Part shown: piece by piece, positions 191 to 42,265 of the stretch
Layout of the letters: each line of letters opens with the position of its first letter
How positions within the stretch are numbered: the stretch's first letter is position 1
Source: Limisphaerales bacterium
GTDB taxonomy: Bacteria > Verrucomicrobiota > Verrucomicrobiia > Limisphaerales > UBA1100
DNA: 64,000 bases
Assembly: GCA_014382585.1 (NCBI GenBank)
Contig: JACNJL010000041.1
Location: forward strand, 1-64,000
Reading direction: 5' to 3'
Position numbers and translations under genes: made by a program
The notes under the pieces: model-generated
Seen by the model: only the letters and a program-made list of their open reading frames with translations
What the model was told of the DNA's origin: nothing
Database searches by the model: none

Positions 191-280
191 ATGGGTCAAC
201 AAACCAATAAAGTACAAAAACGCCGCCGTCGCATTGACTATCTCAAACGCAAAAAGGCCAATAGCAAAGGCAGCAAATAA
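191..280 (+). CDS. 29-residue highly basic small protein
   Basis: The frame from ATG 191 to TAA 278-280 encodes a 29-residue peptide, about half of it Lys or Arg, including an RRRR run followed by IDYLKRKK. A good Shine-Dalgarno (AGAGGA, about 173-178) precedes the ATG, and a rho-independent terminator follows 21 bases after the stop, so it looks like a self-contained gene. Its composition is like small ribosomal or ribosome-associated proteins, but it does not match L34, L36 or bTHX as I know them. Function unknown; RNA or ribosome binding is an inference from charge alone. Confidence 0.62.
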   Translation: MGQQTNKVQKRRRRIDYLKRKKANSKGSK

Positions 281-324: not shown

Positions 325-499
325 GTGATCTTAATTTCAGATTTATTCACAAGCTGGAACTCACATTTTTGCCCACCTTGAGAAAGTTTTCACAATCACC
401 CAGTTCAGACCCTAAAAATAAGGCTTTCCAGCAATCTTCACTCGATCAAAAAACGCAATATTTGGGGATAAGCTGTTCACAATATCTACTAGCCAACCC

Positions 500-1589
500 C
501 CGAAAACGTGGTAACTTGTTCTTAGTTCCGCGAGCAATCGCTGGGGCTAAGGTTCCTTGAAAGAACAGAGTGAAGTGCCGGGCAACCGGCAGGAAACTCT
601 CAGGATAAAACCCAGGAGAACTGGGAGAAAGGGCAGGCGAGGCTGATTCGACTGCCCCCTTTGAAGCGCGACGGATTTGCGGTGAAATTCGGTTGGAAAT
701 CACTTCGGTGATCTGATGGCCGTTTGGAATCGGGAAAAACCGAGCGTGAAGGAGGCACAGTTCACGTGAGTATCCGGTGGCGGTCGCACGCCATCGAAAT
801 GCGAAAAAGATACTCATGAGGTTAGGGGCGAACGGGCGCAAGCCCGACTAGAAACCGCCCCGAGCTGGCTGGAAAACGCGCTGACACGCGTCAGGCTCAC
901 TTCGGTGAACCCGATCATTCGTGACAGTTGCCGGACACAGCCCGGTCGCAAGTCCTTCGGGGTGCGGGACTGAGTTAAGTACGTGCGAGCCCGTTTCGAG
1001 CGAGCACAGAAAACAGTTGCCCAGAGGGTGTTGATTACCTACTGAAGCATCAGCACGGCGGGAAACAAAAATTGACCGGAAACGGTCAGCCAGACGAAAT
1101 CCTCCGAAAGGAGGGACAAAGCTGGGGATCCCGTCGGGATGGCCACGAGCCTAAGACAACGGCCGTGAAAACCATCCAACGCGGTGGCGATACAAAAACT
1201 GTAGCGCTGCCATGTGAACGAAATGGTAATCTGAGGGGTAAGAGGCGAGACCCGTGGCAAGGGCCAACGCACCGTCAAAAGCGGTGGCAGACCCGTGCTA
1301 GATGGCTTGGAGGTGAAAAGTTCACATCCGCGTCCAAGTCTGGTCCGCAGGTCGGTGGCCGCAACTACTGGCTGAAGCGGGCTTATAAACCTCACCCAAT
1401 AATTCATGTGCCGAGAGGCCTTGGACGGCCCTGCTATGAGGCCGACAACTCCGCGAGTCACGGAGAATGGCGTCGGGGAGCAACCGACCCGCATTGCGGG
1501 TGCCCAATGGTTGCATCGGGAAAGAGCGCGTGGCGAGCGCCCACCCCCCAATTTGTCCCTGCTGGACTTCGGTCCGGCAGGGACTTTTT
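500..1589 (+). ncRNA. Candidate giant structured RNA, about 1.1 kb, of no family I recognise
   Basis: The region has no convincing protein gene but is dense with perfect, often nested, hairpins. Simple hairpins with GNRA loops: GCGA-GCAA-TCGC (530-541), GCCGG-GCAA-CCGGC (577-590), CGGGC-GCAA-GCCCG (833-846), GACCG-GAAA-CGGTC (1074-1087), CCTCC-GAAA-GGAGG (1101-1114). UUCG loops: 699-712 and the terminator. Nested helices: CTTAG 521-525 with CTAAG 547-551; AGAGT 567-571 with ACTCT 596-600; GGGCAG 631-636 with CTGCCC 652-657; TGAGTATC 767-774 with GATACTCA 809-816, enclosing GGTGGCG/CGCCATC; GGGGCG 825-830 with CGCCCC 856-861; a 12-bp helix with one mismatch, 1183-1194 with 1200-1211; CTTGG/CCAAG 1306-1338; CCGAC/GTCGG 1442-1476; GCAACC/GGTTGC 1480-1514. 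It closes with an intrinsic terminator at 1555-1589. The 5' end is uncertain (at or before 521). Open frames here (for example 1072-1896 plus, 1039-1551 minus) look like chance frames. cysK follows. Confidence 0.6.
1555..1589 (+). terminator. Strong rho-independent terminator of the large RNA
   Basis: A 13-bp stem (1555-1567 with 1572-1584, one G-U pair) capped by a TTCG tetraloop and followed by TTTTT (1585-1589). It marks the 3' end of the structured RNA and separates it from cysK, whose start is 175 bases further on. Confidence 0.92.
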
Positions 1590-41987: not shown

Positions 41988-42265
41988 GAGCGAATGGTGG
42001 CACAGTCCCAAAAAATACCCAACCCAAACCGCGCAAACTGGCCCAAGGAACGATGATTCCTAGGTGGGACCCAATCGATGCCTTAAGACTTCCAGTCAAG
42101 GCCTGACGGCCAGCATCGAAGGCAAGGCCCCATTTTATTTTGATTACCTTCCGGGGCGATAAACGTTGCGCGGCCCGGGTGGGCTGAGGTCAATTTAGCC
42201 CAAAAGAATGTTTTCCTCAAGTTGCATTGCTTGCGCCGCCACAAAACTTGTTGCATCCTCCGGGC

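Follow-up and report, generated by a model that had tools for sequence, protein, structure and literature searches.

A single-copy MISL RNA gene in a Limisphaerales bacterium, and the DnaA-box-like sites found upstream of MISL genes in Verrucomicrobiota

What is encoded between positions 500 and 1589 of this 64,000-nucleotide stretch of Limisphaerales DNA (the window), and how might it be controlled? The folding and covariation analyses clearly show that the region is a real structured RNA. The minimum free energy of positions 517-1589 is -458 kcal/mol, whereas 60 dinucleotide shuffles gave -397 (sd 9.2) and hence a z of -6.7; no shuffle was as low, and none of five other 1073-nt stretches of the window stood out (z -1.8 to +1.4). 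At least one compensatory change was seen at 113 of the 155 predicted pairs in an alignment of 41 relatives, and of the 50 column pairs with the strongest covariation in an alignment of 76 relatives, 33 fell inside the predicted structure. A protein-coding reading was rejected, as no frame is conserved and compensatory changes are seen instead. The first-pass annotation had described a non-coding, highly structured stretch, which the comparison with shuffles upholds, and a large, independently terminated RNA of a PVC bacterium, which agrees with the covariation and the terminator. It had also looked to covariation as a check, and the compensatory changes among relatives support the fold.

A covariance-model search identified positions 603-1541 of the forward strand as MISL (Rfam RF03079), with 510.8 bits and an E-value of 5e-154 against a gathering cut-off of 274.6 bits, and the match spans the model in full (positions 1-751 of 751). 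The taxonomic range of the source copy is that of the other members found (Verrucomicrobiota), and it is virtually certain that 521-1589 belongs to this family. The region had been put forward as a new large RNA of the PVC group without a known family, and a significant Rfam match had been named as what would overturn that proposal; the RF03079 match therefore removes it. MISL is an already catalogued family of unknown function and not a new class. The family reportedly originates with Weinberg in 2017, and our literature search found neither a published function of MISL nor a paper studying it. At 500-1589 the Rfam search gave no covariance-model match to OLE (none up to an E-value of 5), GOLLD, ROOL, HEARO, group II introns or RNase P. 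The possibility that MISL is a missing RNase P was ruled out by the RNase P RNA found elsewhere in the genome, and a tmRNA search of the genome returned tRNA-sized matches only. MISL is single-copy in the source genome. The features of the RNA are as follows.

521-551 (+): extra 5' hairpin with a GCAA loop, peculiar to the source lineage (fold z -4.5)
552-566 (+): conserved 5' hairpin GUUC-CUUGAAA-GAAC, outside the Rfam model; near-invariant, with 94.8% of cells paired in relatives
558-764 (+): pseudoknot PK-C, 558-561 (UGAA, in the 5' hairpin loop) with 761-764 (UUCA); covariation
567-601 (+): 5' stem-loop outside the Rfam model, helix 567-571/597-601; strong covariation (pair types AU, UA, CG and GC)
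603-1541 (+): MISL RNA core, full RF03079 match
670-743 (+): lineage-specific insertion 1, within a peripheral stem, 74 nt where the model has 10
784-804 (+): pseudoknot PK-B, 784-788 (UCGCA) with 800-804 (UGCGA); covariation at 787/801 and 788/800
831-846 (+): lineage-specific insertion 2, a GCAA hairpin, from alignment to the model and relatives
868-972 (+): lineage-specific insertion 3 of 105 nt, present once in the genome
1212-1327 (+): pseudoknot PK-A, 1212-1217 (AUGUGA) with 1322-1327 (UCACAU); covariation
1555-1589 (+): intrinsic terminator of the MISL gene, from a terminator scan (1555-1584) and covariation in relatives; kept in the deletion scar of a relative, L345

Judged from these alignments, the MISL unit exceeds the Rfam model by a 5' hairpin, a covarying 5' helix and a covarying terminator. 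The model begins at 603, and hence the elements at 552-566 and 567-601 lie beyond it. Covariation also supports three pseudoknots. For PK-A, 67-73 of 72-76 sequences are paired per position, with strong compensatory changes at three pairs; an extra pair, 1218/1321, is present in the source copy and absent in most relatives. In PK-C the pair 561/761 is AU in 46, UA in 16, UG in 4, CG in 4 and GC in 2 of 75 sequences, while the remaining three pairs are near-invariant. When one partner was shifted by 1-3 positions, pairing was clearly lower in all three pseudoknots. PK-C ties the 5' hairpin loop to the MISL core. The 5' domain and the pseudoknots are additions relative to the Rfam model, and the original drawing of the family may already include them.

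The hairpins listed in the first-pass annotation agree with the sequence, the Rfam consensus or covariation among 76 relatives, as do the closings 767-774/809-816, 825-830/856-861, 1183-1194/1200-1211 and 1480-1485/1509-1514 (the comparison with the Rfam consensus covers the alignment up to, not including, the last of them). A fifth closing, 1442-1446/1472-1476, is unsupported, since almost all of the 76 relatives have 1442-1444 paired with 1426-1428. The terminator that the annotation had placed at 1555-1589 was recovered by the scan and covaries in relatives; the RNA probably begins near 520 and not at 500. Taken together, the sequence argues that 521-1589 is a single-copy MISL RNA gene with its own terminator and a probable promoter of its own.

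The source copy is longer than its relatives in the order, 939 nt versus about 755 nt, and carries four lineage-specific additions, namely the three insertions, all at peripheral places, and the extra 5' hairpin. Several of the hairpins noticed at first pass lie in these additions: the GNRA hairpin 833-846 is in an insertion, as are the UUCG-capped stems near 705 and near 905, and the GNRA hairpin 530-541 is in the 5' addition. Of two other members of the family that were compared, L061 has partly comparable expansions and L062 nearly none; at the place of the 521-551 hairpin, L061 has a different hairpin and L062 has none. The additions are therefore, on this comparison, recent. Insertion 3 alone folds no better than shuffles, and its single occurrence in the genome rules out a repeat element.

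Of the sampled genomes, 31 of 388 from the phylum Verrucomicrobiota and 47 of 97 from the order carry MISL. Among the matches listed for a conserved 24-mer MISL pattern in a species-genome collection, titles name Verrucomicrobia, Opitutae, Pedosphaera, Limisphaerales and similar groups, and one is titled only 'bacterium', with no phylum name. Two genomes, G155 and G331, hold two copies each, and the second copy in G155 scores about 100 bits lower. Within the order, MISL lies between an ORF for a basic protein of 29 aa and cysK-rho-WYL-SMC. Across the order, this small, very basic ORF (MGQQTNKVQKRRRRIDYLKRKKANSKGSK, window 191-280, +) is conserved on the upstream side of MISL or cysK; it had no Pfam or NCBIfam match above cut-off. 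In another family, putatively Opitutaceae, typA follows MISL and a helicase gene on the opposite strand precedes it (both genes named from sequence, not by family search). As the downstream genes differ between lineages, MISL is very unlikely to be a cis-regulator and is independent of its neighbouring genes.

Several genomes without MISL have the small ORF and cysK adjacent, and so present syntenic empty sites. L345 is from the same genus as the MISL-bearing L041. In its small ORF-cysK interval (reverse strand) the body of MISL is gone, while the boxes that precede it, the beginning of the promoter region and the terminator are kept. We read this scar as a direct trace of MISL loss. Together with the empty sites, it indicates that MISL is dispensable, at least there.

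Upstream of the RNA, four elements of the window may bear on its expression.

343-351 (+): DnaA-box-like site TTATTCACA, exact; the same 9-mer lies 49 nt upstream of the source genome's dnaA (L379)
386-394 (+): tentative degenerate DnaA-box-like site GTTTTCACA, one mismatch to TTTTTCACA, from the sequence
473-481 (+): DnaA-box-like site CTGTTCACA, one mismatch to TTGTTCACA, from the sequence
490-517 (+): probable promoter by consensus fit, weak -35 TAGCCA (490-495) and extended -10 TG-g-TAACTT (509-517)

The putative promoter fits the consensus TTG..(16-17)..tGnTAannT of 39 relatives; a simple sigma-70 scan found no promoter at 490-517. The boxes stand out far more among relatives than in the source copy. 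In the 300 nt upstream of 76 MISL loci, TTWTNCACM has 117 matches compared with 4.2 expected from shuffles. The wider pattern TT(A/G/T)TNCACM occurs 175 times in 23.5 kb upstream of MISL versus 28 times in 245 kb of flanking DNA, a background of flanking sequence and not of these genomes' promoters at large. When every 8-mer was counted with no prior motif, TTATTCAC was the most enriched upstream of MISL (92 versus 3). The sites recur at about -51, -63, -80, -113, -149 and -182 from the 5' hairpin, distant families included, and in the consensus for the order the proximal box abuts the -35 of a promoter with an extended -10. Of 18 genomes, 14 have the same 9-mers ahead of dnaA, where they mostly fall between -10 and -80 and between about -260 and -340; in the source genome they lie at -49 and -264. 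In the window the array is weak, with one exact site and one or two one-mismatch sites, and 5 of 77 MISL loci have no exact site. A DnaA-box-like array nevertheless precedes MISL in nearly all relatives, across Verrucomicrobiota. Such clusters before MISL genes seem new and may be the first clue to the control of MISL; our literature search found no paper joining DnaA boxes with an RNA of this kind.

Classical DnaA autoregulation uses such boxes. MISL genes resemble DnaA-regulated promoters of this type in carrying the same 9-mers that stand upstream of dnaA in these genomes; they differ in that the product is a non-coding RNA and that the sites are denser than at dnaA. We propose that the upstream array is bound by DnaA, or by a factor sharing its site, and that this binding sets MISL transcription, so that the level of MISL would follow DnaA activity and hence replication initiation or growth state. 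The RNA itself would then act in trans as a compact folded particle, whether an RNP scaffold, an RNA-only oligomer or a ribozyme, and its role may serve a dispensable process. This gene model and action in trans, with DnaA or a factor reading the same site as the controller, is the reading that we favour and consider reasonably probable. Its parts differ in strength. We infer DnaA binding from a 9-mer that another regulator may also use, and would place control of MISL transcription by DnaA itself at, or a little short of, an even balance. We only tentatively suggest that MISL is a replication- or growth-linked RNA under direct DnaA control through a conserved box array throughout Verrucomicrobiota. 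If true, MISL would to our knowledge be the first case of a large non-coding RNA in bacteria that the replication initiator controls.

The chromosomal position of MISL has some bearing on these ideas. In sampled GC-skew profiles, MISL lies near the switch from + to - in G099 and G272 and no more than about 0.4 Mb away in G018 and G275, but 1.2 Mb from it in G091. In the three genomes that were sampled first, the strand of the L2 gene identifies this switch as the terminus. Location at the replication origin is ruled out by the skew and the L2 strand; a position toward the terminus half in complete genomes of family f6 is a tendency and not a finding.

Two other accounts take the upstream sites as their starting point. 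MISL may be a trans-acting structured RNA for which the 9-mers upstream serve as operators of a different transcription factor or of a stress regulator, unconnected with DnaA or replication, a possibility that we regard as serious if somewhat doubtful. In its favour, many of the sites upstream of MISL end in CC (TTATTCACC, 58) and not CA (TTATTCACA, 27), whereas dnaA-proximal sites are mostly CA. However, most genomes have TTATTCACA and TTGTTCACA at recurring positions ahead of dnaA, and TTATGCACA, TTATCCACA, TTGTCCACA and TTATACACA, the variants present in MISL arrays, match the known variation of DnaA boxes. Alternatively, the array itself could be the functional element, as a DnaA titration site or secondary origin, with the RNA as its by-product or regulator. 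The density of sites (up to five within 280 bp) would suit such a role, as would the proximity of MISL to the GC-skew terminus, seen in several complete genomes that belong to one family. We consider it unlikely, as the nearby skew switch is a terminus and not an origin by L2 gene strand, structural selection acts strongly on the RNA itself, and the empty sites lack both array and RNA.

Accounts that tie MISL to its neighbours or to mobile DNA fare less well. As MISL precedes cysK and rho in the order, it could be imagined as a cis-acting leader or riboswitch of cysK-rho; the conserved terminator between MISL and cysK, the presence of typA downstream in the other family, and the persistence of cysK in place in MISL-less genomes make this very improbable, and a cysK leader was ruled out on the grounds of the terminator, the other neighbours and the empty sites. 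A mobile intron, retroelement or phage-borne RNA is suggested by the size, like that of group II introns, GOLLD and ROOL, and by MISL pieces on viral contigs. We give that reading almost no credence, since no Rfam match to introns, GOLLD, ROOL or HEARO was found, MISL is single-copy and syntenic, 50,697 phage and 72,556 plasmid records held no match, and the viral contigs look like chimeras.

Four viral contigs (IMG/VR) carry MISL pieces. L197, L198 and L199 come from leviviruses (ssRNA phages), and in each of them MISL sequence is attached to the 5' end of the phage. The three differ in MISL type and in the MISL position of the junction; L197 matches the MISL model completely, and relatives of one tested phage are without MISL. 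In L200 (1-165) a 5' piece of MISL is joined to a DNA-phage-like gene. RNase P RNA is joined to a phage-like gene in the same manner in L322 (1-333), which supports an origin of such contigs as chimeras with abundant structured RNAs. The viral MISL contigs are probably chimeras formed with an abundant RNA during reverse transcription or assembly, and we explain them in this way and not as genuine phage RNAs, while L197-L199 may be true RNA recombinants. If they are chimeras, MISL would be transcribed and abundant in nature.

MISL is among the few very large, highly conserved bacterial RNAs of unknown function. The source copy agrees with RF03079 in its full-length match, consensus structure and occurrence as a single-copy gene in Verrucomicrobiota; it departs from the family in its length, its three insertions and its extra 5' hairpin, and the unit departs from the model in adding a 5' domain and a terminator. 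OLE RNA, which forms an RNP with OapA, OapB and OapC (PMC11332333), offers an analogy as another large, highly conserved RNA of unknown biochemistry (PMC11332333), but MISL has no OLE model match and no constant neighbour gene, whereas ole is often beside oapA. GOLLD and ROOL are similar in size and have several pseudoknots, and by analogy MISL could form RNA-only assemblies (PMC12286853); unlike them, it lacks a match to their models and is chromosomal, not tied to phages or tRNA islands. The DnaA-like array, the natural deletion scar and the fuller structural outline, with its 5' domain, pseudoknots and true ends, make the function of MISL testable and raise specific questions: does DnaA control MISL, and what is the effect of its loss? 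The window also holds a probable 6S RNA at 42017-42184 (-), which at 43.1 bits scores just under the Rfam cut-off of 46.4.
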